Assembly (NCBI GenBank): GCA_921293015.1
Contig: OV121096.1
Span: forward strand, 22,951,729 to 23,015,728
Origin: Phorcus lineatus
Lineage: Eukaryota > Mollusca > Gastropoda > Trochida > Trochidae
DNA length: 64,000 nt
Direction: 5' to 3'
Shown here piece by piece: positions 8,745 to 58,700 of the stretch. Below the pieces are notes generated by a model. It was not told the DNA's origin and made no database searches. It saw only the letters and a program-made list of their open reading frames with translations. Each line of letters opens with the position of its first letter. Within the stretch, counting starts at the first letter, position 1. The position numbers and the translations under genes were made by a program.

Positions 8745-9609
8745 TTTCTACTAGTACTATGATGCATTGATTCTACTAGTACTACGATGCATTGATTCTA
8801 CTAGTATATATGATGCATTGATTCTACTAGTACTATGATGCATTGATTATACTAGTACTATGATGCATTGATTCTACTAGTACTATGATGCATTGATTCT
8901 ACTAGTTTATTGGATGCATTGATTCTACTAGTACTATGATGCAATGATTCTACTAGTACTATGATGCATTGATTCTACTAGTACTATGATGCATTGATTC
9001 TACTAGTATATATGATGCATTGCTTCTACTAGTTCTATGATGCATTGATTCTACTAGTATATATGATGCATTGATTCTACTAGTACTATGATGCATTGAT
9101 TCAACTAGTACTCTGATGCACCGATTCTACTAGTACTATGATGCATTTATTCTACTAGTACTATGATGCATTGATTCTACTAGTACTATGATGCATTTAT
9201 TCTACTAGTACTATGATGCATTGATTCTACTAGTTTATTGGATGCATTGATTCTACTAGTACTATGATGCAATGATTCTACTAGTACTATGATGCATTGA
9301 TTCTACTAGTACTATGATGCATTGAGTCTACTAGTATATATGATGCATTGCTTCTACTAGTTCTATGATGCATTGATTCTACTAGTATATATGATGCATT
9401 GATTCTACTAGTACTATGATGCATTGATTCAACTAGTACTCTGATGCACCGATTCTACTAGTACTATGATGCATTTATTCTACTAGTACTATGATGCATT
9501 GATTCTACTAGTACTATGATGCATTGATTCTACTAGTACTATGATGCATTGATTCTACTAGTATATATGATGCATTTATTCTACTAGTACTATGATGCAT
9601 TTATTCTAC
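8745..9609. repeat. 25/26-bp minisatellite, about 34 units
   Basis: The unit is close to CTACTAGTACTATGATGCAT plus TGATT, repeated without interruption. Each unit holds two 6-bp palindromes, ACTAGT and ATGCAT. Variant units (TAGTTTATTGG, TAGTATATATG, CAACTAGTACTCTGATGCACC) recur in the same order 328 bp apart (for example 8903 and 9231), giving a higher-order repeat of 13 units. Confidence 0.95.
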
Positions 9610-20100: not shown

Positions 20101-23100
20101 GACCTCCATCCCCCAATGTTTCTTGCATTTCGTTCCCGGCCCATAACGACAACCACAAATCTTCATATAGAAGATAAATTTATCGGCAATGAGCTGCACG
20201 AGATGTTATAACTAATTCTGTAGGGTTATTATTCATTTAATGGCCTTTACCAACAATTTCAACTTGTTTTATAAGATAAGTTTATAAGAGTTTCCTTTTC
20301 AAATAGCGACAATATTTTTGAACTCTCAGAAGGCCGTAAAGAAATGCGCATTGTGATTGCTTGAAATCATCTGTGTCAAGTCATTGAGATTTAGAGGTCA
20401 AATTGGAGGCAAAGGTTTACCTAACTGCTTGAGTAAAGGAGCCTGTGCAGATCTTTAATCTGCGTAATATAGTGCAGCAAAACTAGCTTTTTCTTTTAAT
20501 AAAATTGCAATTAATTATATACGTTTGTATGTAAAACCAACAAAACAACTGTAATTTTCTTTTTGGGTTTTCTTCTTCCTGGGATTGTTTCCATGGTAAC
20601 TCAGCAGAAATAGCTTCTCAAGCATAACCTATTAACTGTAAGGTCTCCAGAATCGAGCTAAAAAAACGTAGTGAGTTAACTTAACTCTGTAAGTGGAAGC
20701 ATCACAATGGGTAGGTCAAACGTATTGCCATTTACAACAGTTAAAACAATTCACAGGTCAAATAACGAGTACTAAAGCTCAATAAGAAAAGTTTAAAATC
20801 TAAATGTGACGGAGATATGGCTGAATTTGTCTACTTGTTTCAGTTAGCGAAGCAAGGTGACGTGCGTGAATTGGAGCGGTGCCTGAAGGACCGGAGTGAA
20901 GGCGCCGTCCAGAACATCGACGAGAGAGACGGCCGAGGACTGACACCCCTCCAACACGCCATCCTCAACAATCAAAAGGATGTTGTCGCGCTGCTCCTTA
21001 AACAGGGTGCAGGTAATATAGAACCATATATGCAATATGAGCCTCTAACATAGTCTAGGTCGCAGTATGTCTAGATTTACCTATACGCTAGACCAAGACG
21101 TAAACATAATAACAGTGTTCCATCATTTGAGGAAATATATTACAAATACCCAAATTTAGTCATGTAGTTCAGACACGAATGTAGAAAGGTCTTCTCAGTA
21201 CCCTTGAAGCCTGTGAAAATTTTTTATTCCAAGATCTATTCAGTTTTGCAGAACAAATTGTTTACGACAGGCTCTTTTAAAACTTGTATACAAACTGTCT
21301 TTGTTTGTTTGCAGACCACACAGTCAAAGACGAGCATGGACAAACCTTGGCTCACTACGCTGCCAAGACAGTCCGAGGAAAGACCCGAAACGCTCCTGAA
21401 TTCAGGGCCCATGGAGGACAAGAGCATAGGGAGTCTGATGCCAGGTCCTCGGGTTCGGATGCGAGGAGTTCTTCTTCAAATGTGAGTCAATTAACGCAGT
21501 GGTGGATAAAAAAAATTCGAAGAGGAGGTTTCACCTTTTGAAAAAAGGGAGCGGAAGGTTATCCCTTACCCTTTTATTAAGCGATATATGAAAAATGGGA
21601 TAGCGTCAACCTGATCTGATCTTGTGATGCTTGAGTCCAACCTAGCCATAAGGACGATGCCATTTATATGCTGGGTAAAGAGTGTCTTCAAAGCCTGATA
21701 GCGAGTGTGTAGTTTTCACCTAGAGATTCTGGAAAGGTTATGAAGCTTATGGATATGTTTTACTTGTGCTTTGCTGTTTCTGAAGGGGTCGGTTGGATCT
21801 GGTGAGTGTATGGAGCTGTTGATCGAGAAGGATAAGAAAGCTAACAACGGAGAGACAGAGATCATCTACGTGACAGACAAAGTCAACCAGCAAACCCCCC
21901 TCCACTATGCCGTGGTGTATGGGAGCAGCTCCTGTGTAGGGATCATCTTGGGAGAAGACACAAACAGACTCCACGACAATCTTGTCCACGTCAGTATCCT
22001 TATTTTGAAATTTAGTAAGAAATCCTGTTTAGGATAAGTTGATGTTATCAACTGTCCTGTCCGCACGAGGTTTAAGTTTAATTTGATCGAGATAGAAAAT
22101 AGAGACCTTTTCGTATTGTTTTCTACCATCATGCAGGTAAAATTGTCCATATGCAAACCACCTTCACGCTCTGTGTGCAAGTTCTGGAAAAGTTTAGGAG
22201 GAAAATCTAATAAAAAAAGGTAGCTTGAATAAATAAACCTTTGCTTTGGATTACAATGCACCATAATAAACATGTGATTTCTGAAGACAGTGCCTGGCGG
22301 AAAGTTTGATTTGGAAGGAACATCTGTCAAATGGTAACGCAGGTGTCCTTAGGCGAGCTCAGTGAGGACGGAAACCTCACGTAGAGCATGTGGGCAAAAT
22401 CTCGCTTGATTGTCAAGGATTGCTCTTGAGTTAAAGCCAACATGCCAACATAAAGTTATGGATTTACAGATCGTTTTATGTTTATCTTGATACGAAGATT
22501 TTCATAGTGCAATAATGACAACAATATGTCGTCTCGTATCACGAGGATCACGAGTTATTCTATCTGTACAGTGGAAGGACTACCATGGAATGACTCCTCT
22601 TCATCTGGCTGCCACCTACACTCAGATCGACATAGCCAGGGTTCTGCTCACAGAGGGAGCAAGGGTCACCGATGTCGACAACACCAACTCGACCCCACTA
22701 CACTATGCATGTGCAACTGGAAACATCAAAATGGTAAAAGATATACTCGACAGGTTTGGGGATGACCCACAGTCGGAAGAAGATAGGAGACAAGTAAAAT
22801 TTTCTTTGCTTGATGGTTAAAGAAAGAGGACTTTGAATGCAGTCCTTAATCAATATTGATGTTACCTCGATTTTACGATATTCAAGTTGAAGCTTGCATG
22901 GACCTCAATGCTGTAACGTAATGCAATTGTATTGATATGGCCATATAATGGACCTTGTTACTGGCAGTTCCTGTCGATGAAAGACAATGGGAAGAACACG
23001 TGTTTGCACATCGCTGCTGAGAGTTGGCGCCGTGTGGTTCAGAAACTCCTCAAGTCAGGTGGGTGTATCAGCTTAAATTACATCTACAACAGTATTTTCA

Positions 23101-25101
23101 TCATAATATGATTATCACTACCAACATTATCATCAACATTATTAACTTTCAGAACCGACATGTATATCAACATCAACATCAAAATCAGCATTGACCTATT
23201 ATCAGTACTAGCATCAATGTCTAACATCAACATCTAAACAAGCATCTTCTTTTATATCTGAAATCGTTATATTCCTTGCGTATATCACCAAATTGGAGAT
23301 CAGACGCAATATCAGCATCAAAATCAACAACACCAATATTCTTAACAATCAAAATCTTCATCATATAAATACTATCATCACTAACACCTAGAACAACAGC
23401 ATTATCAGTATAGATATATAATTGGTAGTGATTACATTGTTATTGTAAGCTGTATAAACTATTTCAAAATGCAGGGGCAAGTGCAACTGAGGGTCGGAGA
23501 GACACAATGTCCCCACTTCATCTGGCAGTCATTTCTGGTAACAAGGAGATCGTGGAGGAACTGTTGCAGCATGTTGGTAGCTACACTTCACGTGCTGACA
23601 GCATGGCCCACTCAACACCACTCCACATGGCCGCACAACACAACCGGAAGGAAATCGCTGAAATACTCCTCAAACATAAGTAGGTTTATCGGCATTCTTT
23701 CAAAATGTCACAACAAGCACTACAACATGTAAATCTCTCTATCACATCAAGCACTGCAACACGCCAATGACATTTCTGTATCACAGCAAGGACTGCAACG
23801 TGTTTTTAACAACTCTCTTACAAATAAAGCATTGCAACAGACTTATGGTATTTCTCTATCAGAGCAAGCACTGCAACGTGTCAATGACCTCTGTCTCTTA
23901 CAGCAAGCAATGCAACATGTCAATGTCAGTTATCTCTATCACAGCAAGCACTTCAACATGTTAATGACATCTTTCCATAACAACAAGACCTGAAACATGT
24001 CAATGACATCTCTCTTTTACAGCAAGCATTGCAACATGTCAATGACATATATCTCTCCTACAAATACTGCAACCTGTCAATGACCTCTCTCTATTACAGC
24101 AATCACTGCAACATGTTGTTAACATCTCTCTGTCAAAGAAAGCATTGCAACAGACTTATTGCATTTCTCTATCACTGCAAGCACTGCAACATTTCAATAA
24201 CATCTCTCTATCACAGCAAGAATTGCAAAATGTCAATGACAACACTCTACAACAGTAATCACGGTTAGGTGTTAATTAAATCTCTCTATTACAGCAAGCA
24301 GGTGAACATGACTGACCGAGACGGGAACACTCCGCTGCACATAGCTGCGCAGTATGGACATCAAAAGATGGTGGTTCTGTTGATGGAGGCAGGTGCTGAT
24401 ATCCATCAGAGGAACTCCAGGGGCAGGATTCCGTTACACGGGGCGACAGAGAACAACAACGAGGACGCACTTGACGTACGTTCGTCAATAGTGTAGATTA
24501 TAAAATTTGTTATTGTTTGATAAATTGTTACCTAAGAGGGCATTTATTTAGGCTGATATTTATCATACGGTGCCCTTGTGCAAATGTCATAGTGACGTGA
24601 CGTCAGGAACAATGATTACGCCACCTTCGTCTATGCATTCTAAATGTGGCTTCAGGATTATGGGTTTGCAGACCCCTTTGTGTACGAGATTTTTTCTAAG
24701 CAGTTGTAGCATGACATTTTCCAGAACCCAAAAATAGAGGATTTTATCAACGTTAGAAAAAAATTAAACATCACACTCTAATGTAATAGTTGACCTTAGT
24801 TGTCAAGGGATCAACAGTTAGGAATACGCTAAGCCTATTTCGCCCTATTTCGTGATTTGATGACATTTATGATCGATTTATAATGAAAAAAGAACGAAAA
24901 TGCACCGCAATTAAAGGAATATTAATATCATATAAGTATGATAAGTTTTGTTCTTACACAGAGAGCAAATGCCAGTCAATAACAAAGTACCAGTATCAGT
25001 TATCTGTTTTATTTACAGGAAATCTTAAACCCAAAACCTCTCCGAGTGGAAAAAAGTTTAGGGATATACAGGAAGACAAGGCAAAGATTGGGAGGAAGCT
25101 G
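17155..25101 (+). CDS. TRPA-derived ankyrin-only paralog, copy B (9 exons)
   Basis: Exons: 17155-17214, 20844-21012, 21315-21481, 21786-21989, 22572-22793, 22968-23058, 23475-23679, 24295-24475 and 25019-25101. Exon 1 starts at ATG (MDNSSSELGQFF...) and ends in phase 0; the rest join in phase with GT-AG borders. The ankyrin cores are intact (RGLTPLQHAILNN, QQTPLHYAVVYG, GMTPLHLAATYT, STPLHYACATG, SPLHLAVISGNK, STPLHMAAQHN, NTPLHIAAQYG, IPLHGATENN), about 10 repeats in 433 residues. Exons 4-8 are roughly 85% identical in protein to copy A. In exon 9 copy A has 90 nt, while B has 86 with a small indel, so reading in phase ends at TGA (25099-25101). No linker, membrane or pore exons follow; two terminal-inverted-repeat elements and a Gypsy element come next. 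It is either a truncated pseudogene or an expressed ankyrin-only protein of about 460 residues. The intact first 8 exons favour recent or continuing constraint. Confidence 0.75.
17215..18448. other. Intron 1 of copy B, left part
   Basis: AT-rich, with no recognisable feature before the LINE at 18449. Confidence 0.5.
18449..19605 (-). mobile_element. 5'-truncated LINE in intron 1 of copy B
   Basis: On the minus strand the right part encodes the thumb region after the reverse-transcriptase domain: GLLIAKFKHLGGMPFSVYTK and YGAGIWG match the 'G.P...YxKLxxxxVxxILxYGxxxWG' block of LINEs. After a frame change, the left part has a C-terminal zinc motif (CFNCSDIVEDEMHVLLFC) and ends with a stop near 18616. 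The 3' tail is a CTGT-type repeat (ACAGACAGACAGACAG on the plus strand at about 18450). It is broken and 5'-truncated. It lies in antisense orientation to copy B. Confidence 0.8.
19606..20843. other. Rest of intron 1 of copy B
   Basis: Mostly featureless. At 19835-19853 it carries a single end (TCACGGAGTGGCTCTTTAA) of the element family whose complete copy lies at 25119-25597. Confidence 0.6.
23090..23470. repeat. Intron 6 simple repeat (ATCAACATCA-rich)
   Basis: Imperfect CAACATCAACATC-type repeats fill the intron between exons 6 and 7. The matching intron of copy A (57640-58110) holds the same motif on the opposite strand, longer and purer. Confidence 0.7.
23690..24290 (+). repeat. Acceptor-derived 39-bp minisatellite in intron 7 of copy B
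   Basis: About 14 imperfect units of roughly 39 bp, each carrying TCTCTATCACAG followed by CAAGCACTGCAACATG. The true exon 8 border reads TCTCTATTACAG then CAAGCAGGTGAACATG, so each unit is a copy of the acceptor and the first ~20 bases of the exon. As the unit is 39 nt, the look-alike exons are in the same frame as exon 8. An in-frame stop lies between the array and the real exon. Confidence 0.85.
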
Positions 25102-25118
25102 AAGGTTGTGTCAAATGC

Positions 25119-39947: not shown

Positions 39948-40721
39948 TTATTTAGCTGGTATGTTGCTGCTCTTCTGTGTTTGCACGTCCAGGAGACTGG
40001 TCATCAGTCTGTTCATCTGTTTCTCTATCTTCTCTAGTCTCTCGTCAATCCTCTCCTCAAGCTGTCTCTGTCTGCTAGCTATCTCTGGAATTTTATCCTG
40101 CAACAAGAAGAGACATATACTCAATCTATAAGGAGGAATCCTGCAACTTTATCAGATGCCGTTGTCTTTGCTATCTCGGAAATAATATCCTGCAACAATA
40201 AGAGACATTTCTTTGGTCTCCACAAAAGAATCCTGCAACTTTATCGGACTGCTGTCTTCTTCCTACTCTTTGGAATAATGTCCTGCAACAACAAGAGACA
40301 TATTCTCAATCTCTGATATAGACTCTTGCAACTTCAGAGATGCTGATAATATCCCTTAGCAATAATCCTGATACAGACCCCTGGGAAAAATTGAGACAAC
40401 TCAATATTTCACAATCACCTTTAATCTCTGGAACATGATGCCTGCAAATTGATTCACAATTGTTTACAATTGAACATGACATTAGCATCCTTATAATGGT
40501 AAAGCAATATTTGTGTGTCTATTACTGACCAGAACAGCACTTTCATCAGGTTCCACTGTTTGGTTCCACCACCAGATTGGCCGGCTTATGAGATAATTCC
40601 ACAGTTTTTTCAGACATCCAACATCATCTTCATCCCTTGTATAATTCTTGTCTCGTTTTATGTAAAGCTTTCTTCGAATACTTTCAAACAAAACCTTCTC
40701 GACATCGAGGACAAGAGCAAT
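39948..40721 (-). CDS. Copy A C-terminal domain (exons 29-30)
   Basis: Exon 29 (40721-40530) reads LVLDVEKVLFESIRRKLY and then NYTRDEDDVGCLKKLWNYL and ends in phase 0. Exon 30 (40097-39948) reads IASRQRQLEERIDERLEKIE followed by a Met/Leu heptad pattern and stops at TAA. The heptads fit the central coiled coil that holds TRPA1 tetramers together. The flanking intron carries repeated copies of the exon 30 acceptor. Confidence 0.9.
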
Positions 40722-43700
40722 CTGCAGTAGAGGTAATGTGAAATAATTTTTTCTGTTAGAATATCTGTAGCATCAATATCTTTCTGTCCAAAGTGACACA
40801 TCTTTGTGTAATGATAATGGTGTTATTTATGAAGAAAAATAACTTGCAAGTTTGCCTTATGTAGGCATGACATCCAAATACTAACTGAAACAATACGTAA
40901 ATAGATTTATGTCACTTCAAACTTACATGCATTGCAGCCCTTTTAAACGCTGCTTTTCGAAGTATGCCCTTGATATCGTCAACTGCCAAACCAACCTGAA
41001 AGAGGCTTCCATTGGTTATGCTTGCAAAAAGTTATTTTATTATGAAAGATTTATTCAATCAATAACTGGCAAGTACACATCCCTTATACATAATGAATGG
41101 AAAATGAGTTTAGAGGTTCAAGGGAACACTACCCATATATAACTACTTTGATGGGCACGAGATCTCTGAGATCATATACTGAGAGCTGAATGAGGACTCT
41201 TGGATTTTGATAAAGGGTACATGAAAAAACTTGATACCTAAATGATCAAGAGGTAGGGTGACATGTTTTATTTTCCAAGCGTAAAAAGTCATTACTGAAG
41301 GTCCAAGAGGGCACATAAGGGACTTACTAAAGGTTAACAAGGACACACATCAGACTTACCAATAGGTTCGAGAGGACAAATAACAGAACTACCAAGAGGT
41401 TCAAGAGGACACAGTACATACCCACCAAGAGGTTCAAGAGGACATATTGCATATCTACCAATAGGTTCATAAGGACTCATGACAGACTTACCAAGAGTTT
41501 CAAGGGGACATATTACATACCTACCAAGAGGTTCAAGAGGCCATATTGCATACCTACCAAGAGGTTCATAAGGACACATAACAGACTTACCAAGAGGTTC
41601 AAGGGTACCTATGACAGACTTACCAAGAGGTTCATAAGGACGATGCAGGCCAGTGTGATGAAGAAGGAGAAGATGACAGAGGTTGCTGTAGGATATAGGA
41701 GATTGGTCGTGTCAACCACTGTAATGTTGTCTACACCTCCGTTGAACAGATCACTGTAGTCAATTTCTCCAAGGAACATTACTGTTGTTTTCAATATTGA
41801 ATTGGGGACATCTCTGAAAGCAACCTTCAAAAACACAAACCAGTGAGTTAGTTATAATTATATATTTTAAACCGTAGCTTTAACTTTAAAATAGGTTTGA
41901 TAGCACTTGTTACAAAGTTATTTGGAGCCACAGAGTCACCTTATTAAAATTTATAACCCACTTTGAAGACAAGAGCTAAAATACCTTGGCCTTTCGTTCT
42001 GGATAAATATATGAACATTTCTTTTGGAAAGACGCCATGCCATAAGGTAATCTGGTCAGATAATCTATAAATATGTTTGTTCAGTTGACATAAAGTAAAT
42101 TGACAAACCTGGTTCTGAAGTAGAGTGAAAAAGCCGAGTGCGAAGGCGAGAATTAACGAAAAGAAGACGATGAAGACCTTGGCAAAGGTCCAGCAGACCA
42201 TCTGGAACATTATGACGTACAGACCCAGGGAGGTGAAGGCCTTCAGAAACATCACAAGGTCAATCCACGAGAAAAAGAGAGCAAAGGCTCCAACCGACCA
42301 CTGCCAGTCCTTAGGGAAACATAATATAGTAATAAGTAAAAACCCTGGATTTTATAGTAGTTTTTATCGATATAAAAAAGATGAATAAATTACCAATAAG
42401 ACTTTCTTTTGTGTGGAAGTGGAAGTGGAAGTGTTTTTTTAATTTTTTTTGTGGACAAGTGTTGGTTATTTTATCAAAGAAGATCAGTTTGAGAGACTTT
42501 ATTCTCAAAAAGGGCATTATATCGGCTCTCATTAGTAGCCACAACTTTTTCACAGTTTCAAGAATCCAAGTTTCAAACTGATGACTTTATATTTTTTGTG
42601 TGGACGTTAGTATTGTTATGCCAGGTCAAAAAATGGTAAATAAACATAACAGGGTTATACTGCAGAGTTGCCATTGGCGTATTATTATCGTATTAAATAG
42701 AGATTATTACCCGAGGAAGTGTGTCATATGACTTTTACGAAATGAGTGCGAAGTTTTCGCTCGGGTAATACACAAGTTCGCACGAGTTTTGTAAAAGTAA
42801 TATGACACAATTCCGAGGGTTATAATTTCTTTATTACCGATTCTATTTCATTTAAAACACAGTGACGTCACGAACAGTGGTTTGATGACGTCACAGACTA
42901 CATAATACGGCAACTCGCGGTGAAACAATCGTTGCTAGGCAAAGGTGATATGTACACATGTGCTCATATTGAATATACATCATCACCTATGATTAACCAT
43001 ATGGGTAATAAAAAGTTATATGTCCCTAATCAGAGTCAGATAAGGCTCCTGACCTACCTGTCTATAAGATGTTTTGATTGTGCAACTGTTAAAGTCGAGG
43101 AGAAAGAGGAAGGAAAAGCTGTACACGATCCAATCGACGTAGTTCTCGAAGTCAAAGAAGTATGCCCATCTCATGTTTATCAGCTGTATGATCTGAAGAT
43201 TAATAAAATCAAGCGAAAATTACAAATTTTCTTTTTCAATGTAAAGAAAACAAAATTAAATAGCTTTTTAAATGCATGTCACAAAAGAAATTTCATTCGG
43301 TATTGTTTTACTGAGATATCAAAGTTCTCGTTTTAGACGACATATGTTAAACTACATCTATACATTTAGTCTTGTACATCTTTTAAATTCCTACCATTTC
43401 AAGGAATTTTCAACGTTGGATATCTTATTTAGTTGCAGAGACCACCTTCAGGTCAATATTCATCTTCCAACAACGTTTTTTCTGAAATATTCGTAAATGC
43501 ATCAGTTGCAGAAAGTACATATGCATTTCTCTTTTTCAGGTTCTGTTACAGAATCTTATTGAGAAAAGTCCAATCCAACTGACCTCAAACACCGCTCCTA
43601 TTACCATAAGGACATACATCAGTACTTTCTCAGCCGGGAGCCATGCATTTTCAAAGACTTTAAAAGATAAAGCACCACAGTTGTCTTCTTTTATGTTCTT

Positions 43701-46700
43701 AGCATCATCTGATCTGAAATTTTTTAACCCGGTGTATTATAAAAATATTCTGTATTTGATATGATGTTATTGTAAATGACACAACTTGTTGTTTGGTGTT
43801 AGTTTCTTGATTTGAAAAAGCCCGTTCTGAATTAGTTGAATCCTCAGTATCTGATAACTCTAATTTTCCCCATTGTTTGTTTCACACATGTTTGATAATT
43901 CAAGTAAAAATAACGAGTATATCATAAAAAGAGTGAGAGATAATCATGCATGTTACAATCTGATCATTTTTTGTGTAATCGCCAAATTTCTGATGACGTT
44001 CCTGAATGTAAGTTGTAGAATGTATGTGAAATTGTATTGACAACATTGACAGATACATACTACATTTTATGTAGGACAGAAAGATGGCATTTACTCCCAT
44101 AGCCTAATTTATAATTGAATTTTGAACAGAAAGTAGAATACGTGAACAGAAATTTTGATAAGGCCGATTTAGTTTGGAAAATCACGAAAATAGACATCTT
44201 CCTAGTCACATCAACAGATGTTTGGTGAATAACTATGATGGGAATCTATGGCAGATATTTCTTAAGATATTCCACAAGCCTAGCATTGTGTTTTTCATTG
44301 TGGATAACTCATAACTTTGTTGTGATCTTCAAGACCTACAGGGTCATACTATATGGAGAAAATCTTTTATTTGATGAATTTGATTGAGAAATCACGCTGT
44401 CAAGAATAACATTTCGCCACGAACAAGGGCAGAGGGCCCTGTATCTTAAATGGAAATAATTAGTGACATGAAATGAATCCAGTTAACAGGTTTTGAAATA
44501 TTTTATTTGAGTGAACATGTAAGTCAGAAACGTTATTTAGGATGAAGCAAATGCATGAACAAGATATATTGCTATATGAGGACATTAAATAGAAAAACAG
44601 CTTGAATGAGGATCAGTTTTACCTGTAAAGGTGTGGTGGTTTGGTGATGATGACGTGTCTTGTGAGGAGGATAAGGAAGAAGACGTGGATGAAGAAGGTA
44701 AACAGGTAGTAGTAGCCCCCGAAACTAAACCATTTGAACTTCACCAATGTCCTCACGAGGTCGTGCTGCAGCAGTTCCTTACGTTTGTGTTTTACCTGTA
44801 TAATAGAATTTTTCATCTTTGTTATGAGGAACTGTTATCCTATATTCATATAGAGGTTCTTATTGACAAAATACTTTCTCCTTTTTTTACCTGACATCTC
44901 ATCTTTCAAATGTCTGATACCACCATGAGGTCAAACGATGTCCGTCACTTTGTCAGGCAACAGGGTTCTTGACTAGCATAGTCAAAATCGACTGGTCATA
45001 GAACATTTTAAAGATTCAGAGGATTTACCAAATGGAAACTTTGCCGTATCACGTTTTTTGAAAGATTTATTTATTAAAATTCTCCCAAATAAACAATTCT
45101 GAATGCTAAATGTAGGGTCAAATCATCTTATTACTCAATCCGATCATCGTAGAAGAAAATAATCAAGTATCTAGCAAAAACCACTTCGGGTCAATTTTGA
45201 GTGAATATACCTTTTGATCATTCGAGACACGGAAGTTAATTCGTAAAGCGTAACCAATAATGATCCATTTGTTCTAAAACTGCCTTTTTTGAGTAAAATT
45301 CAATTTACTGCCATTGAAAACCTTTATTTTCATTTTCGTGAGATCACTTTATATATCTAGAACAAGCTCAAGTCGCAAAAGCCTCCATTTCCTCCTATGC
45401 CAAGCTTACCATGATCTCCAGAGGGTGGTTCTTCTTCAGCACTCCTGCCCTATCTGTGTACGCTGCGTATTCCTTTGTCTTCCGCGGTTTCCCGTCTTTC
45501 CTTGCTTTTCATGCAAACAAAACAACATTTAACCAACTAAACTTTTGATTCATTGATAGATTATTTTTCAATTCACCTTCGGACATTTTCAGATTCACCC
45601 ATACGAGAATTTTCATCTTTGTACCTGTTATCCAATAGAATCATGGATTAGTTCAAACTGACAAATAACTTGGATCTTCTAGCATAATGTTACATCTCAA
45701 TTTTTGGGCAAAACATCTTTCATCAAGCTTTAAAAAGGTACTCTATACCTCAAAGGGGTAAACTCATTTCGCATACCTTATACATTCATTAAAAATGGAA
45801 TTTTTTCTAAAAGCTAATAATGACGTTTTGCAAAAATGACATTTTCAGGTCCACATTGTTGCCTCTAGTAACTACAGTTCAAATGCTGGTAAGAAAGGTA
45901 TTATCAGTTTACATCACATAATTCCAAAAGGGGTTTCAGAAAAAGAGAAACATGTTTCAAGGCGATAATGTGAGTCAGTCAAAAGAGATAACCCAATTAA
46001 TAAAAGTAAAGACTATAAATAAAATAATTAAGAATAAAGAAGAACGTTCTATCAACAACACTTGAGCATTACGTTGTAACGACCAGCTATCTTTGGTCAT
46101 CAAATCATCTATGAACTCGTAGTTGTATTTGAATTTCTTCTTCGGCTTTATGGTATCATCCTTCGGTTTCTTTGTTACATCTGTGCAACACTTGTCCATC
46201 ACTTCCATGGCAACGTCTTCGTTTCCATGAAAAAAAATCAAGTTTAAGGTTATCAGCAGTAATATCTTGAAATAGAAAGTTAGGAAAACAGCTGAAGATT
46301 CAGCATTCTGAATATGACATTGATCGTTGATAAACGCGATCAAGTCCCTTTAAAGAATACGATAAGCAAGGGGATTATTATTTTCCGTGTTTTGGATACA
46401 TCCTTATGGACATCATACATCCGTTTGTGAAAGATCAATCTTAAACTTTAAAAAATGTTCCGTAACAAGTTGTTTTTTTCTAAAAGAGAAGACAAAACTT
46501 GTCAGGGTCTACTATACTCATAAAGCAATTCCACATGTGCTTCTTTGAGCGTGAATCTATTGAGACATGTAAAAGAGTTGTTATTTCTTTGGTAATCCAA
46601 TGGCTGAGATAAAACCAAGGGGATTGGAATTGTCGATAAAGATACGTCCAGGTCAAAATTCACCTCCTACAACTTTTACATTATAAATAAGCATATGAGT

Positions 46701-49700
46701 TACATTTGTCATTGAAGGAATTTTTACCAAGGACGTATAGTTTTAGGCAATACCAGTCGCTGATCATAATTCAAGATAAGTTCTACCATATAAGAGAACA
46801 AAACGGGTTCGTAGAAAGTATGCTAAATAATGGAGTGACATGATGCATTTAACAGGTAATTTAAACGTTGCTATACTTATCGTATATCCTAAACATGTTG
46901 TAGTGTGGGCCTCATGGCTATTAGGTCAAGTTTAACAGATCCATGTACTAAACATACGACAAATTTCACAGATCATTGACTCAACATAGGACAAATTTAA
47001 CAGATTAAACTACTAAAAATGGACAAGCTTAACAGATCAACGTACAAAACACAGGACAAGTTTAACAGATAAACGTACAAAACACAGGAGAAGTTTAACA
47101 GATTAAAATACTTAAAATGGACAAGTTTAACAGACGAAAGTTATAAACATAAGACAAGTTTAACCAATGAATTCACAAAAATTCAGACAAGATTAACAGG
47201 TTAGTACCTGGCATATCCCTGATCATCCTTCGCATGGGTGTGTCTATCTTCCTAGAGCCAGGTCTGGGCGGGACGCTATTCCTCATGGCGTGAATCCAGT
47301 AGTCAGACTGGATTATGTACTGCGCTATCTCTCTACAAGCATAGCAAGCTTCATGGTAAACTATCTTCCAGATGAATTCACTGAGAAAGAACTTTTAAAG
47401 GGGCAGTAACACGTTTGTTTGAAAGATCTATTTATAACATTTCCTATATAAACATTAGTGTATACAAAATGTATGATCTTAGAGGGTTAAAAATCTCATT
47501 ATTAGACACGACCGTCTACATGTCGTAGGGGGAAAAAATCAGGTATCAAGTAATGTCAGTGGCAGCCATTTCGTTGTTACCCCCTTTTAATGATTTGGGT
47601 AGGGAAATAAATTGGCATAGCTTAAATTATTTCTAAGAATCGAATTCGAAACGATTTTCTATGTCATTTCCCACTTGAATAAGCACGGCTGAACAATCAC
47701 TACTTGTATACGTATGACTTACTTGTGCCCATTTCTGATTGCTATGTCCAAACAGTTAAGACCATTCTCATCCTTGAATGTGACGTCATCAACAGTTTTC
47801 AGTAGCAGTTTGACAACTTTGAGATGACCTTTAGCGCATGCCAAATGAAGCGAGGATACCTATTTTAATGAAAATTATCAAAATCTAACCACATTGAAAT
47901 TCTTGGATTTAAGTCATATATAAACTAAAAGTTTTTTTTAAAACCATGCAGGACGTACATGTACCTTGAACATGATATATGAATTGACACGTCCATGATA
48001 TTTGAGCCTTTGACATATAGTCCATACGACAAAAGTGTGTGACGAAGTTCATGAATAATGAAAAAAGTTAACATTTTCCAAATCAAAGATAAATGGGTTT
48101 TCAGGAGATAAGATAATCATCAGCGAACATCGATTACACAAATGATAAGTTTAGAATGATAAACTTCCTGTCTTTCTGGACTGATTGTATGTTGTTGTTG
48201 GACTTATAACCAGAATGAAAAAAGTTATAGATACTTGCTTAGTGTTGAGAAGAACCATTCAAGGAGTAAATTATTAAAAATATTAGTAAGATTATACAAG
48301 ACCAGACACCCTGTGTATTGGTGGTACACAGAGGCACGTTTCTTGCAATAGTCTCCCAAAAGTAGCCCTGTTGATAGAGGAATATACCCTTTATACTCAA
48401 AGATTAGTGAATACTAAACGACATCTCCGTTTAATAACGTATTTATGAAACGAGTGAAAAGTTTAATATATAACGAGCGAAAACGAGTTAGCTACCAATA
48501 CCATTCAGGAGCTTCATAAAAATGTAATTAAACGGGATTGGGTTTAGTATTTTATCTATTACTCGCAGAATTATATCAAGAAAAAGGCAATAAAGTATAC
48601 AATAACGTCAATAAGCACATGATGGTAACACAACATTGTAGATTCATTGAACGGCGGTATCTTCAACGGGCTAGTAAATAAATATCAAATATCGGTTCCT
48701 CGTCCTCTGAGAAAACATGCCCATAGTGGGAAGTGATTCTAAACATTGCTCAGTTGACCTCTATCAGTCAGCATCATCCGACGTGGTTTGCCGGATGGGT
48801 GGGTTGACTAGATTCATGAGACATGAGATAGGAACGGAACCTTATTCGAAATTTGCCTCTGTTAACCAAGCAGTACAAATGGGTACCTGGTTTGGAAGTA
48901 ACATAGGATAATAAAGCGGATAAGGGGATTTTGAGTTGCATACTACAATGGATTCGGATTATAACATATGGGGTGATTTTTTCCCTTACACCAGGTCAAT
49001 AATATGTGTGGCGCGCCCTCTTACTGTGGAGCCCAGCGCAATATCAGTATCCTCATTACTTATATGCTGATCTTTCATGAGGTCCGGGGGCTGAAGGATG
49101 GACCCGAGACCACCAACCACGATCATTTGATCAATTCATAAAGTTTATCCAACTCACGTCGTCCTTTTCTAGCCACGACTGGGCCTCGAGCTGAACCAGT
49201 TGTTTGCAGATATCTAGTTGGCCAAACTCAGATGCAAGGTCGATTGGTGTCTTTTTGTGAAGATTACTGGAATATATGCAATCAAAATGGATGGAATAAA
49301 TGAAACACTTCTGATAAAATGACGGGTTTAAATAAACAGGTGTATATTCACTGAATAATGAGCCGTTACACAAGCTTACTTGCAAAGTTTTTTTGTTGCG
49401 TCTATTAGAAAACTTAAACCCTGAGATTTAGTTGAAAAAATAAGAATTGAAATTTAAGAATGACGGTAGTGACTCCATTTGTTTCGTTTAATGTAACGAC
49501 AGAGGCTATGTTCAAAATCAGAAACTGAATGGAATTGTCAAATCTCTCGATTAGGTCGGATCGCCAAGCTGAGGTGACACGACTGAAGGTACCTGTATAA
49601 GTGAACGTGACAAGGCTAGCAGAAAAGAATTGGTAGGATTCACATACAACAAATACTGTTACAGAATACCCTTAGCTATTACATCATTCTACAGAAAGCA

Positions 49701-52700
49701 TGAATAAACTCTATCAATGTTTAAACATCTGGGCTGAAACTAGGAACTGTGGAGAGCACTTTTGGTTTGAACAATAGAATAGGTTGATATTTGCTAAAAC
49801 GTTACATTTGGTTGATATTAGCTCCTTTGCCAATCAGTATGTCCACTGTGTCTTTGTGTCCATGTCTGGCAGCAAGATGGAGGGGAGTGTTGCAGGTCGC
49901 GTCTTCTGCAAACACAGAGTTGGGGTGTTCCTCAACGATCATCTTCACACACCTGAACAGAAAACAAAGTCTGGTGATGAAGAGCACTCCTTGCTTCACA
50001 TTGATTAATAAAGATACCATATTGTAGCCTTTCTCTCCCAACATGGGCTGCTCCGTCAGAAATTCCAGTACAACTTCAAACCTTATACTTGCGTTTCTTG
50101 GTCTAGAACTTTAGAAGTCTGATTGGATGCAACCAGAGGTTAGTTGTGCAATCGGCGACGCAGTTTCAAAAGCTATCATTCAAAACGCCTCAGTTATTTC
50201 CATGTGCTTTCGGAAAGCTAAATATACACTTCGAATATACACTTTTTACTTAGTCTTCTCCAAAGAAAACATTTGCCTTATAGTTTATTATGCGACTGCA
50301 TCATTTCATATGCCTGTGTGACTACAAATATGTGGCTGTAGGTATTACAAATTTTTTTCCGCTAGGGGAACCTGCAGGAAGCCCGAGAAAATGTCCGTTC
50401 TAGAACAGAGGTTTTCTAGGAATTAATGGCGGTGCTGCCTCTATGGGATGAGAATGCATTGGTGCAGGCATCAAAAGTCATTTTTCAATTACTTATCAAG
50501 AGAACACACCATGATGGTAGTTGTCCAAAATCACATTGACCCTTTTGGAACCGACAACCTATTGTTATGTTAAATGTTAATTAATACACTTATGCTTCTG
50601 GAATAGAAAAAATAGCACCGAAATCATCGTTAGATTCCTGGAACGGAAAACATTGCTTTCAGGTCGGTAGGTGTATTCGACTATTGAACCTCTTGCCAAT
50701 TCTTAAGCACTGTACTGTCCTGCCAGTAGATGTATTTGTAAATGAGTCGATTGACAGAATTGCATTTGGCGATAGAATATTTACATGGTACAATGGATCC
50801 TATTATTAACAACTGAGAAAAAACGTACTTGTTCTTGCCGTTTTCTGCCGCTAGGTGGAGTGCTGTAGCTTCCTTGTCGTTCTTCCTGTCGTACTCCGCG
50901 TGGTGTTCCTTGAGTAGGCACTGGAACAGTCGGATAGCTTATCACATATTCATATACCGAACACACTCATGCCACGCAAGGTGGACCACTTGAGAAGACA
51001 CTGGCACTGGCACGTTTTTCTGAAGTCTTGAGAGAGCAGGAAAGGGGTGGGTGTCATGGCATGTCACTCGCAAGTTTGCAAAAGGTCTAAGTGTGGGCCG
51101 TGAGCGGTACGTTGGGCACTTTTTATTTTTTTTTTTTTTTATTTTTTATTTTTTTTTATTCCATTTCAAATCATTTATACAAGTTACATGAATAGGCAAA
51201 TCCGTTTACAAAGGCAGTTATCTAATCGTTGTTAACAGAGGTAAGATACAATATTCATGTTATTAACATATGTAAAGTTTGCAGTGAGTCAGGACAACAT
51301 GAGAAGGCTGTATGGACACTGTGGGTTAATATTTTATGAGAGCTTCATTCAATGCCTAGAATTATTAGCAACTGGTTCCATTTCTCAGTAAACATTTCTA
51401 ATCTGTTATTCTTCCTAGCAATAAATTTTTCAATTGAACATGTCATTTTTAAATATTTTAGAAACTCCTCAGAAGAGAGTACATTTTGTTTTATACTTGA
51501 GACATAGATAAATCTTTTGGCTAAAAGTATTATATGATTAAGTATTTTATTGTGGGAGCTAACTCCAAAGGTGACATAAAATTTTGTAAGTATGATGTTA
51601 AAATGAAGATGATTATTAATAAACATTTCCAAGTCTTGCCAAAAGTTCTTTACAAATTCACAGTCAAAATATACATGTGAGATATCTTCTGAGGAATGTT
51701 TACAAAATGTGCATTTATCATTGTCAACAAGCTTCATCTTCAGTAGTTCTCTCTTTGTATAAATAGTTCTGAAAATGAATTTATATTGAAAATCAAGCAG
51801 CTTACTATCACTGGTACATTTCCTGTAACATATAAAGACATCTTTCCAGTTTATGTCTTGTTGAAATACATTGTTCCAATACTCTAGTACCTTTGGGACA
51901 GTGTTGTTACCAATTAGTTTATCATAAAATATCCTTGAGCCTTTACTATCAGAGCTCATATCATAATGGACAATATTGATAGTTAAATTATTTAAGCAAA
52001 TATTTCTGGTTCCTAATAGCTGTTTCCAGTTCTCTGGAATGTTGTTTAACAAATGTTGATAATCTAGAAATGTTCCTTTTATTTTGAACTTATGTTGGGC
52101 ACTTGGTATGTGAGTTGTACGAGACTAAAACGTGCTTTCTACCTGCTTTCTCCGTGCGATTGCCACGATATCCTACGGAGACCTACAGGTGCTGCTCAAG
52201 TTCGTTGTCCTTAGTATCATGTTGTAAAAGCGGACAAGAGTGATGAACATAAACAATTACACTCAATAATACAACATATAAATTATAATAGTAAAAGCAT
52301 GGGAGCAAAAACATTCAGAACAATGAAAAGAAGTTGGCACTGTAGTACACGAAAACTCTAGTCCCACACTGGACAGAACTGCAAAACAAAAACCGGAGGC
52401 GTAGTCAACTCTGCAATAAATTAAAGTCCTCATAACAGAAAAGTTGGGGGGGGGGGGGGGGGGGTGGATCTTAGGAGCGGTGTCAGGTGTCTTCTGAAAT
52501 ACTGCAGAAATCAGTGCGCACACGTGCATTGTGAGTGAGGATCACATGCTTTCTTCAATACTGTTCACGTGAGTTCTGAGTGCTTAGTAGACAGGCAGTT
52601 GGAAATGTTCCAATAGGCACGGACCATGGAATGGTATGCAAGTGCCAGCAAGTGATCGTGGCAAAAAAGTTAAAAGACTCACGGAGTCCGTGTGTTGTAT

Positions 52701-55700
52701 GCTCATTGCCAGGAGAAGACACACGCGTCAGTTGTACTTGGAGTGAATCCTTAGCCCGACCGTAGCATGAGATCATCGAAAGATCGGTAATATGCACAAG
52801 AAGTGCTACAGTGTATCAGCGTCCCCTACATCCGTGTTTAGCCGGTACTCACAGAGCTGGGATAGAAAACAATTTTGCCCACGCTTTTGCACGTAGACAA
52901 CACGCACTTGCACGTATGGCGGATTGGGACCAACGCCCAAGTAGGCACGGGAACAGTCAAATGATAATACCCACACTCACAGGCAAATAAGCACACTTGC
53001 AACGATAAACATTCAAGGCATGCTGTTGCATCAGAAGGCACTGAAAGACAAACCTGCCATGACAATCAACTATAACACCATATACACGATCAAATAGAAT
53101 AAAACATGGTCTTTCATTTTGCATATGTAAACATTTATTCTAACCTTCACAATGGCGACGTATCCGTTCTTGGCCGCCAAGTGTAGCGGTGTGTTTCCGT
53201 CATGGTCCTCTGTGTTGACAATATTATCCTTGTAAATCCTCCTTAGTAGCATCTGCAGATAAGAAACACTACTTTCAGAGTTCTTCATGAGCCCTGTTAA
53301 CGTAGATTGGAGGGAGGAAACTATCTAGGTGCTGTGGCACTTCCATAACAAATTACCTCAAAACTCAAGTCAAGTAGAGACGGGTATGCTTCAATAGTTT
53401 CAAAATTTAAAAAATTTATTGCAACATATGATTATAATTCTCTATTTAATTCGATGGTATACAAGGGACATACATACATCTACTTGGTCTCCAGATACAA
53501 TGGTCTTCTGACGTACAAGCTGAAAATACAAATAAATTCAGATACAATCTGTGTATGAGAATGCACTTTACATTAAATAAACTGAATGGATTGCGTTCCA
53601 TTGCGTGTGTTTACTATTTAATCATAGATATGCAAAACTGGCTTGAACTTACAAACCGTCCATCTAAATATTTTGATATTATAAACTTCTTTAACATGAA
53701 GAGAAGACTCTTCTTCCCCCCAAAATGATAATTTTCGTCCTTTATTTCGAAGATGCATTTGTGCTTAAATAACGAAATGTTGAAGTACTTCTTTGAGTAA
53801 AAACGCAAGCGTTGAAGACAAAGGGTTTGCTGGATCAATATTTCCGGGGAAACCCGATCTCGAATAGAATAAGGATGAAGAAGGAGCTTGTAGGGGGAGA
53901 GGGTTAAGGGCTAAAATCTGGAGTTACAATTATGATAGTTGATACACTATTTGAATCAACTTACCTGTGCAGGTACGGCACCATTTTGAGTCTGAAGAAG
54001 GCAAATTGATAGTGTCATTAGATTGTTGGTAAGCTGAATATTCAATTTAATTAGTCAACTTTGTAGGTAAGAATAATTTCCATAAAGAATCACACCATCA
54101 TTTTTTTTATATCATCGGTTAAATCTCTAACGATTGAATAACTCACTGTGGGCATGACCGAAGTTTTCCTTTTCCATTTTTTTGTCTGAGCATGCAGCTG
54201 AAATATCAACAAAGATAAGATGAAAAAAGGGGCCGGTTCCATTCCTCATGTTACATATTCAAATTTACTTAGTTTCAATCTAAAAGCCTTAAGAGGATCT
54301 CCCAAGTGTCAAATCCGTTTTGCTAGGAGCGCTTTACCAATTATCAAACTGAACAAGTAAGCATAAACAATCAAAGACATAAGTTGATGACCTATATGCG
54401 ATGGAACTATGGAAGATAGAAATAACCACATCTAAATGAATAATACCTGAGGCGAAGCCGAGTGTAGATTTTAAAAACAAGAAGGATACTTAAGGTTGAT
54501 TATACATATGTATAAATCAACCATTGATGAGGACATATATAGTTGATATGAACAGTATCCATTTACCCGTGATATTGGACATGTATATAGGGATGATAAG
54601 TGTGATCAGATAAAACCCATAAATGAGGAATATCACCTACTTTTACGAGGTTCTTTATCCTCAGTGACGGGACTCGGTCTTCCACTGTCTTGCCAAGTTT
54701 CTGTTCAAAATAGACACGTGTTTTCGTATTTTTCAGCAGACGGTCAAAGTATAATTAATATCTATTCTAACGAACTACATACATTTTCATTTGGCTGACC
54801 CTTTTGAACCTTACAGGGATCACCCTTGTATGGAGAGTTTCATGTGCAATTTGTCTTTTCCTTAGCTAGAATTATGAATATTTATGAACTAAAGAATATC
54901 TCACTTTAGAAAATCGGGGTGGCCCTTTATTTATATTGTTAGGTATACATGAGCGATCAGCAATTAGAAGTATCGTTTTAAAATATCCTCCCTCAAAGTT
55001 AAACCCATTGCTATTCCAGGAAGAAGTTTCAAACAACTGTTAATATCCGTGGTTGTTGATTGAAACAAAAGAGACTATGATGAGGTACCCTATGAACTCA
55101 CTTCGAGGTACTCGCGGACCACCATGACAGCTTCCTCCATGTCCTCCGTGTCCTCTGTGGTGTCCGTCTTGTTCAGCTCCAGGCCTAAACTCTGACAAGA
55201 AGAATAAAATCTTCGATTTTATAAAAATTGACGCAGAATACTTGGTATTTTTGTCATCGCAGACGTTGTCTTTCAAGACAGATTGTAAGTAACTTGTTAA
55301 TTTGCATTCGAGTTCCAAAGCTAACATGCTTCAAAAGATCATTCATTTGGTTAGAGAAACGCTTCGAGATGACAAATTTTAATAAATGGACTCGAGCTAC
55401 AACTGAGTACTCGAAACGAGACTATAGGACATAAATACCAATAAATATAAGCATTGACATTTCCCTCATCTTTCAAATCAAATTCTTTTTGTAGGTGGAA
55501 AGATGACGAGTTTCGACAATTTAACAATTAATCAACTCAACTATTTTCACAAAATGAAAAGTGTAAGTTCACACGAGGATAATGATTAAGAATAAGAGAA
55601 AAAAGACTGAAACACTTCATTTGTTTCAAAATACTACCTCAAGCTTCTTCCCAATCTTTTCTCTGTCGTCCTTTTTAATTTTCACAAACATTTTTCCAAT

Positions 55701-58700
55701 CTCAGAATTTGTTGGTTTCAAGATTTCCTGCAAATGCAGAACGATGATAAAGTTCCGTTTATTTTTTAAAGGAAATGACTTGCAATGCAGTCGACAAGTT
55801 ATTGTAATGTTGTGATGCTATGCCAGCCACAGTCAATGACATTCCATCACATTGCTTTTAGGTGACCAAATACTTACATCACAATGCCATTATCAAATGT
55901 TATTACATAGTAACAGTGCCATGACATTAATGCATTTGATGTCTAATCATTATCTTAGATGAAGATTTACCCTCATAAAACTGTGTTCCAACATCAAGGC
56001 CAACGCCGATGGATAATCAAGACTATAAAAAGACATAAACAGACAGAAAACATGCTTCTATGATGGACTCAGCGTACCTCAAGGGCTATCTTATTGTTGT
56101 TCTCTGCCGCCCCGTGCAATGGAATCCTGCCCCTGGAGTTCCTATGATGAATATCAGCACCTGCCTTCATTAGCAGAACCACCATCTCTGCATGTCCATA
56201 CTGCGCCGCTATGTGCAGCGGAGTGTTCCCGTCTCGGTCAGTCATGTTCACCTGCTTGCTGAAATAAAGAGATTTAATAAACACCTAACAGTGATTACTG
56301 TGTTACTGAGTGTTATCATTGAAATGTACCAGTTCTTGTGGTGATAGAGAGAAGTCTTTGATATGTTTGCTCGTTTTGACATAGGGATGCCATAGATGTG
56401 TTGATGTGTTTGTTCTGGTATATGGATGCCATAGATGTGCTGCTGTGTTTATTCTGGAATATGGATGCCATAGATGTGTTGCTGTGTTTGATCTGGAATA
56501 TGGATGCCATGGATGTGTTGATGTGTTTGTTCTGGAATATGGATGCCATTGATGTGTTGCTGTGTTTGTGGTGATGAAGGGATGTCAGTAGAAAAAATGC
56601 AGTGTTTGTTGTCGTTGAGGTATGGCATTAACGTGTGATAAAGGAATGGCAATAAAAAGTTCGGTGTTTTTTGTACTGGAGGTTCATCATTGACTTTACA
56701 TGTAGCAGTGATTGTTGTGACCGATGATGTCATTGATATGTGGGAGAGAGATGTCGATAATATTGCATTGTTTGATAAGCTAGAATTGTCACTGAAATGC
56801 TCCAGTGCCTACTGTGAGATAGAGTTCGAGATAAGATACCATTGTATGTTATCTTAGGTTGTTGCATTTAAATTATGAAGGTGACATAATGTTTTATAAA
56901 CCTCCAGTCACGCCAATCTGTTGTTATCTTATCTATGCCCTCTGCCCCGGGTAACCATCTTGATATTTTCCTACAAATATCCATCTTCAAATAAGATAAG
57001 AACATTGGTTTTTAATTTAAGTTTTTACTTATCACTTTTGAACAATGAGTCAGGATCAAATTTTCAACCTACAAATGTTTTAGCGATATGAAGTCTCGAA
57101 ACCCATGTGGCTTGTTCATTCGCATTAGCAGTCAGACCAGTTTAATTACAATTTGAAGACGGATTTCATAAATGGTAAAACATTCTCGTTTATATTATGA
57201 ACGGCGGACCTACTTGTGTTGAAGGAGTAGTTCTGCAATTTCCACCCGGTTGTGTTGTGCAGCCATGTGGAGTGGTGTTGAGTGGGCCATGCTGTCAGCA
57301 CGTGAACTGTAGCTACCAAGATGCTGCAACAGTTCAGCCACGATCTCCTTGTTACCAGAAATAACTGCCAGATGAAGTGGGGACAATGTGTCTCTCCGAC
57401 CCTCAGTCGCACTTGCACCTACAGGTAAATAAAGGCCTTCCGATAAATGAAAATAATTTTAACTCATTTTATGGTACGAGCCATATGTTGGAATAATAGA
57501 TACAAAGGCGTATTTAAAGAATAATGATGACTTACAAGATTGATGAATATTGTTAATATTTTTAATTGCGATAATCAAAATGGCAGGAATTAGTTTTCAT
57601 AACTGCAATCGTGTTGACCTTGTGATTGTATTGATTCCTTTTCTAATGTTGTGTACATGTTTAGGTTGATGATTATGTTGATGCCAATCTTGATGTTTAG
57701 GTTCATCTTGATGTTGATGCTAATGTTGATGTTGATGACGATGTTGATGCCAATCTTGATGGTTAGGTTGATGATGATGTTAATGTCATTGTTCATTTTT
57801 GGTTTATGATGATGTTGATGCTATTTAAATATTGATGATGCGAATCTTGATATGATGTTTAGGTTGATGATGATGTTAATTTCATTGTTCATTTTTGGTT
57901 GATGATGATGTTGATGCGATTTTAATAGTGATGATGCGAATCTTGATGTTAAGGTTGATGATGATGTTAATGTCATTGTTCATTTTTAGGGCTAATGCTG
58001 ATGTTGATGTGAATCTCGATGTTCAGGTTGATGATGATGTTGATGCTATTGTTGATCTTGATGATAATTTTGATGCCAGTAGTGATGTCAGTGTTGATGT
58101 TGATGATTATGGTGATGCTATTGTTCATGTTGAAAAAAAGAAAGAGGCACCTTCCTTACCTTTCAGTCAAAGTAACAAGGTACCATAATGATAACGTTGA
58201 TATATATATATATTTTTTTTTCTAAGCGTACAAAGGAGACAATAATCGGAGCATATTTAGACATGTTCTGAAGAAACATCCATCAAAAATAGTTATCTTT
58301 AACTACACAGTGATAAAGAGTTGTGTCAATTTCCACGGACATTAACTGAAAGATTGAGTAGATGGATTGATCTCCTTTTTATCAACTGATGATGATATTT
58401 TTCTGTCATAGATATATTGAATTGTTAATGTTGATGCTGCTTTTGCTGAGCTAAGGGAAATGTTTATGATGACGTTAATAATGGTAATTTTGATAATCAT
58501 CCTGCATATTGTGATGTAGAGGATGCATTTGATGTTGATGAACCCACCTGATTTGAGCAGTTTCTGTACCACCAGGTACCGCCCACTCTCAGCAGCGATG
58601 TGCAAACACGTGTTCTTCCCATTGTCCTTTATCGACAGGAGCTGTAAGTCAATATAATAGTTGATTTTGACAACTTCACATATATGGGTTCATACAAGCT

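Follow-up and report, generated by a model that had tools for sequence, protein, structure and literature searches.

Minisatellites built from splice borders are shared among the paralogs of a TRPA gene cluster in the gastropod Phorcus lineatus

Several introns of a TRPA gene in the gastropod Phorcus lineatus contain minisatellites whose repeat units are derived from the splice borders beside them. This was observed for the borders of exons 8, 27 and 30, for exon 8 through the paralogs of the gene. The arrays recur in the other members of the TRPA cluster, which thus carries several inherited examples of the structures called mirages in amphioxus. The observation made in the initial annotation of this DNA is sound, but its reading of the arrays as the product of an undescribed process was too strong. 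We consider it probable that the arrays are border minisatellites which arose by ordinary local tandem duplications and were tolerated, inherited and turned over.

The window is the whole 64,000-nucleotide stretch of DNA that was analysed (C37:22951729-23015728; genome size 958 Mb), and positions without a contig name refer to it. In agreement with a molluscan host, the genome has 16 matches to PF14830, a haemocyanin beta-sandwich domain characteristic of molluscs, and C12 carries them as two clusters with eight each. TRPA copy A is located on the minus strand (57418-39948). Its model comprises 24 exons, numbered 7-30 after the initial annotation, which when spliced form a single open frame of 999 residues. 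The end of exon 21 at 46073 was set by the reading phase, 46062 being the wrong donor. The protein contains an Ion_trans domain and resembles TRPA1 structures, with the match lying mostly in residues 579-908. The paralogs were annotated by tblastn in C37:22850001-23105000, a region that includes the window. Rows that were out of order or without AG/GT were discarded, among them the majority of those for B and P6. The minus strand of the cluster carries the genes P1, P2, P3, A and P5, and the plus strand carries B, which is partial, and P6. Copy B (20880-25104) is apparently restricted to a part of the gene: exons 7-9 are present, and tblastn did not recover exons 10-30 in order ahead of copy A in the window. 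An array with a 25-bp unit is located upstream of B (8746-9609) and upstream of P6 (C37:23091364-23091837), which suggests that the two genes share their upstream region. By eye, intron 15 of copy A (51120-52124) seems to contain the terminal part of a LINE-type mobile element, with an open-frame fragment (51345-52124) and a minus-strand A-rich tail. Exon 27 was located in six cluster genes and in two older TRPA genes, at C37:29711043 (55% identical) and C9:59238503 (38%). The exons of copy A that are beside the arrays in question are the following.

56078-56258, minus strand: exon 8 (exon model)
47208-47380, minus strand: exon 20, with intron 20 starting at 47207 (exon model)
41624-41824, minus strand: exon 27, with intron 27 starting at 41623 and a peptide identical to that of P2
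39948-40097, minus strand: exon 30, the final coding exon (exon model and frame)

The relation between borders and arrays was assessed by aligning each border with 20 bases on either side to the remainder of its own intron. Introns longer than 7000 bases or lying beside missing exons were excluded, which left 107 introns with 214 borders in the seven paralogs, and these paralogs are not independent of each other. As the null, 214 shuffled controls were used; their maximum score was 25.

The clearest donor-side case follows exon 27.

41299-41641, minus strand: exon 27 donor array, 33-bp unit, 9-10 units (TRF, border score and unit parse)

In copy A the unit consists of the last 18 bases of exon 27 and the first 15 bases of intron 27. 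The units step from the border in exact 33-base intervals; nine of them were parsed, and TRF reports 10.4 copies. The intron 27 donor scores 44 in A, 39 in P2, 46 in P3 and 42 in P5, so that all four paralogs annotated at this intron exceed the null maximum of 25. The array is present in all six cluster genes in which exon 27 was found, with 36.4, 24.0, 10.4, 9.5 and 5.4 TRF copies per gene and, in one gene, two blocks of 4.9 and 5.7 copies. Although the exon 27 peptides of P2 and A are identical, their arrays contain about 36 and about 10 copies, respectively. Within P2 the similarity of the units is 0.92, compared with 0.67-0.84 to the units of other paralogs. Homogenisation within the array is clear only in P2, slight in P5 and at best marginal in P6, and the units of A, P1 and P3 are no more alike within a paralog than between paralogs.

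No array is located after exon 27 of either older TRPA gene, although the exon ends of both are like those of the cluster genes. The exon is therefore older than its array. This bears on the opposite order of events, in which a minisatellite of the intron expanded across the exon edge and shifted the border, which would give the exon an end of array origin. Such an origin would agree with the near interchangeability in sequence of the exon 27 units and the border. For exon 27 it is disfavoured by the two older genes, which have the exon end without the array, and exon 8 begins in an ankyrin-like stretch. We regard an array-first origin as very improbable.

On the acceptor side, the border of exon 30 shows the same kind of structure in copy A.

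40094-40306, minus strand: exon 30 acceptor array, 92-bp unit, about 2.3-2.6 units, with acceptor-like TTGCAG/GA sites (TRF and border score)
40282, 40232, 40189 and 40140, minus strand: TTGCAG/GA sites of copy A, given by their first base; the real acceptor is at 40097 (frame check)

The acceptor of intron 29, which is that of exon 30, scores 53 in A, 63 in P2, 47 in P3 and 35 in P5 (four of the four annotated paralogs; null maximum 25). The wider TRF run enters exon 30 by 20 bases in copy A, by 30 in P2 and by 28 in P3. Copy A contains five TTGCAG/GA sites at a spacing of 43-50 bases, and each 92-base unit includes two acceptor-like sites.

The splice signals within these arrays might suggest that selection keeps them, either because the channel is regulated through redundant or alternative splice sites or because use of the array sites yields variant proteins. 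GT is retained in 84 of the 96 non-border exon 27 units of the six paralogs. The scores of 63 of these 96 units fall within the range of the real donors of these genes, and 20 equal or exceed the score of their own real donor. Two acceptors of the exon 30 array in copy A likewise score at or above the real one, and the arrays have endured at four borders across several gene duplications. However, use of the downstream exon 27 donors would lead to an in-frame stop starting 13-37 nt into the intron in six of six paralogs, and the four array acceptors checked for exon 30 of copy A lead to stops after 4-26 residues. The difference between the exon-like and the intron-like bases of the units is not significant (modal frequency 0.87 vs 0.80, p 0.15), and the copy number varies widely. 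Maintenance by selection is in our judgement improbable.

The array beside exon 8 is less obvious in copy A, and its origin was recognised by comparison with the paralogs.

56381-56569, minus strand: intron 7 array of copy A, 39-bp unit, with its end 122 bases short of the exon 8 acceptor (TRF)
23708-24300, plus strand: intron 7 array of copy B, 39-bp unit, 15 copies, with 6 bases of the array inside exon 8 of this copy (TRF)

Intron 7 contains an array in seven of the seven paralogs. In copy A the exon 8 acceptor scores only 14 against this intron, and no match of at least 26 was found. The acceptor scores of the other paralogs are 38 in P1 and in B, 37 in P6, 33 in P5, 29 in P3 and 16 in P2. 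The array extends 6 bases across the exon 8 acceptor in P1, B and P6, and the 39-base units of B and P6 match the acceptor region up to -25 to +16, thus including up to 16 exon bases. The arrays of A and P2 no longer show the likeness to the acceptor, and for copy A the acceptor origin is visible only in the paralogs.

The fourth array is located downstream of exon 20.

46922-47203, minus strand: exon 20 donor-side array, 33-bp unit like the start of the intron, without exon bases (TRF); weak in A, clear in P5, P1 and P3

Arrays are present in intron 20 of five of the five annotated paralogs. The exon 20 donor of copy A scores 20, which is inside the null (maximum 25), and the intron 20 donors score 15-25 across the paralogs. 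With the first 36 bases of intron 20 the scores are 39 for P5, 32 for P1, 28 for P3, 24 for P2 and 23 for A, the shuffled maximum being 24. The intron 20 starts of all five paralogs rank in the top 8 of 107, where the two lowest do not exceed the shuffled maximum, and this ranking relates the array to the beginning of the intron; exon bases are not part of it. TRF places the start of the array 8-106 bases from the donor, so that calling it abutting is generous.

The initial annotation had stated that all four arrays of copy A are built from the adjoining borders and that the unit of three of them includes about 15-20 exon bases. The first statement holds within copy A for exons 27 and 30, and for exons 8 and 20 only by way of the paralogs. 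The second is correct for exon 27 (18 bases) and exon 30 (20 bases), while the unit at exon 8 contains exon bases only in paralogs (up to 16). The involvement of both border types was confirmed, with the donor of exon 27, the acceptors of exons 8 and 30, and exon 20 on the donor side.

Across the 214 borders a score of at least 36 was reached by 12 (5.6%), one of which, the P5 intron 21 donor with a score of 59, was measured at the wrong donor position. The array in this intron begins 3 bases inside it. In interior windows about 9% of the positions per intron are duplicated on average, a value that counts every array unit and is thus an unfair comparator to the 5.6%. The acceptor of intron 15 scores 47 in P3 and 33 in A; it was rejected as an array, because each of these introns contains no more than one to three copies, all of them diverged, and that of P3 a single one.

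Not all arrays of these genes are related to borders, as is evident from one that the initial annotation had omitted.

57646-58133, minus strand: intron 6 array, ATC-rich (TRF), with like-placed arrays in P1, P2, P3 and P5

No clear derivation from a border was found for this array, which with its counterparts is present in five of the seven paralogs and is a counter-example to the border pattern. Non-border arrays occur in one paralog or another in introns 6, 9, 10, 16, 23 and 26 and between exons 11 and 13 of P5. The P5 array between exons 11 and 13 spans 9.1 kb and contains about 190 copies of a 48-bp unit (C37:23048687-23057780). A 170-bp repeat, possibly a dispersed repeat family, is located in introns of two paralogs (intron 9 of P3 and intron 26 of P5), and by eye a 160-bp unit beside exon 27 of P1 is partly like it. 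For the border arrays of exons 27 and 8 a dispersed satellite family was ruled out. In a genome search that skips very common words, 12 of 12 matches of the exon 27 array DNA and 3 of 3 matches of the exon 8 array DNA were located within the TRPA cluster on C37, which bears out the view that these arrays are not dispersed satellite.

The number of arrays at borders could also mean that tandem duplications in this genome start preferentially at splice borders, which would then be mutational hot spots; paused polymerase, R-loops and the re-insertion of splicing by-products are conceivable causes. The expectation under random seeding was obtained by placing minisatellite families randomly in introns 6-29, with arrays collapsed. 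Seven families were counted after A/T-rich runs, the 170-bp repeat, arrays of fewer than 3 copies, two short repeats of P3 intron 27 and the 48-bp array had been set aside. Three of the seven straddle a border (0.89 expected, p 0.044), five straddle a border or lie within 3 bases of it (0.98 expected, p 0.0007), and four straddle or abut when exon 20 is left out (p 0.008). Adding the 48-bp P5 array (eight families) changes these p values to 0.070, 0.0017 and 0.016, and adding the 170-bp repeat as well (nine families) changes them to 0.17, 0.009 and 0.053, respectively. The excess under the smaller family sets agrees with a hot spot, but the straddling excess loses its significance once nine families are counted. 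All these p values are post hoc and flatter the border preference, because the gene was picked for its pattern. Splice borders are thus only weakly preferred over random seeding, and the strength of the preference depends on the families counted.

Further arrays near borders are in favour of a hot spot. One is the array 3 bases inside P5 intron 21. Another belongs to the older TRPA gene on C9, which has an array of its own, unrelated to the others (32 bp x 3.2), starting at the exon 26 donor (C9:59238991-59239093; L037:1492-1594). It is the only array with a period of at least 10 and a score of at least 50 in the 9.5 kb examined, and since it is unrelated to the other arrays it indicates that new border arrays do arise. 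The 32-bp unit has GT at its start and CAG at its end, like a miniature intron. A third array lies in one of the six CCT genes used as controls (47 kb with 36 exon matches; other exon edges may be missed). This array (16 bp x 10.8, L036:1-173 on C1, clipped by the stretch edge) ends 25 bases before an acceptor, but its score of 10 against that acceptor, with a shuffled mean of 10.6, means no resemblance. None of the seven arrays of period at least 10 in the CCT genes copies a border, six of the seven being at least 106 bases from an HMM exon edge, and the local duplications in these genes begin after the donor, not at it.

A crude genome-wide word test was also performed, in which three MAGGTRAGT donor words in a row with gaps of 12-42 were searched for; matches are counted per triplet, so that long arrays dominate. 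It returned 424 donor triplets, compared with 200 for the reversed control and 194 for a scramble. The single donor word is rarer than the reversed one (33,435 vs 38,350), which places the donor triplets 2.4-fold above the reversed control per occurrence. A third control, the reversed scramble, gave 450 triplets and so exceeds the donor word, and GGTAAGT showed no excess (1049 triplets vs 1203 for its control). When distinct arrays on C1 and on C2 to 65.08 Mb were counted by hand from the listings for the donor word and two of the controls, the donor word had 9 and the controls had 4 and 5. Arrays of donor words therefore show no clear excess over the controls genome-wide, at most about a two-fold one, and the claim of a special process that repeatedly expands borders did not find a clear signal in this test. 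We consider border hot spots unlikely. A related idea is that borders are favoured birthplaces of minisatellites in this mollusc, where the constrained exon copy would anchor the arrays, so that they outlive interior ones through gene duplication and supply alternative splice sites; we hold this to be doubtful as well.

The sharing of the arrays among the paralogs shows that they were inherited and do not represent four recent events in a single gene, which makes the case weaker than the initial annotation had put it. Sequence comparison indicates that the arrays are older than the duplications of the paralog cluster. We propose that local tandem duplications, caused by slippage or end-joining, included or began at the borders of exons 8, 20, 27 and 30 in the ancestor of the TRPA cluster. 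A duplication spanning a border would keep one intact exon edge; the mRNA could stay unchanged, and the extra copies would become intron. The arrays would then have been copied along with the gene and would have grown and shrunk separately in each paralog. We infer the mechanism of duplication, its neutrality and the continued splicing at the outermost copy. The weak homogenisation counts against this reading, because old arrays are expected to be homogenised and this is clear only in P2. Random local duplication together with tolerance suffices to account for the arrays, and a modest border bias is possible. Nothing that was found calls for the re-insertion of splicing by-products, R-loops or selection for redundancy.

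Tandem duplication of splice borders has been described before, contrary to the statement that no known process accounts for it. In the available text of the amphioxus reports, mirages are minisatellite-like tandem copies of intron-exon borders on the donor or the acceptor side, present in Adh3 and in the globin genes BflGb6 and BflGb9 and reported too for TnC and PGBD5 (PMC3087553; PMC3902484). Their units include exon bases, many units carry AG or GT, and the copy number is variable. The proposal was made that new introns could originate from them, and RT-PCR pointed to normal splicing (PMC3087553; PMC3902484). A similar human case is the 31-bp VNTR of CBS, whose unit, according to the variant name c.1444_1467+7(16_21), joins the last exon bases to the first seven of the intron and is present 16-21 times (PMC2630376). 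It shares the donor-side border unit with the arrays described here, but as presented there only one gene is involved, with one polymorphic array. Intron gain through tandem duplication of segments with splice signals has been reported as well (PMC4974935; PMC2812944). As far as these accounts go, splice signals are copied locally there, as in the TRPA arrays, whereas no new intron was found in the TRPA genes and the copies sit inside existing introns. For a minisatellite in an intron of an abalone TSSK1-like gene, border derivation is not stated in the text seen (PMC6905558). Among the titles and abstract starts of the open-licence literature, no further or molluscan case of border arrays was recognised.

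The TRPA arrays resemble mirages in several respects. Their units span the exon-intron border at exons 27 and 30 in copy A and at exon 8 in P1, B and P6, the array at exon 20 being without exon bases. Both 5′ and 3′ borders are affected, and many units, though not all, keep their signals, as the GT of the exon 27 units illustrates. For mirages, copy number instability between alleles or in soma is described; in the TRPA cluster, as seen in one assembly, the exon 27 array ranges from about 5 to 36 copies between paralogs. Homogenisation within arrays is reported for amphioxus, whereas the TRPA cluster shows it clearly only in P2. The normal splicing of mirages was suggested by RT-PCR; for TRPA copy A the check covered the genomic frame. 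The hosts named in the amphioxus reports are lancelets, and the mollusc is thus a difference of host and not of structure, which widens the host range of mirages. Unlike the mirages as described there, the arrays hit several borders of one gene and are common to a paralog cluster. With several borders and comparable paralogs, the birth and turnover of border repeats and their effects on splicing become testable, and the many decoy sites that score like real ones offer a natural experiment on splice-site choice by the spliceosome when the candidates are nearly identical.
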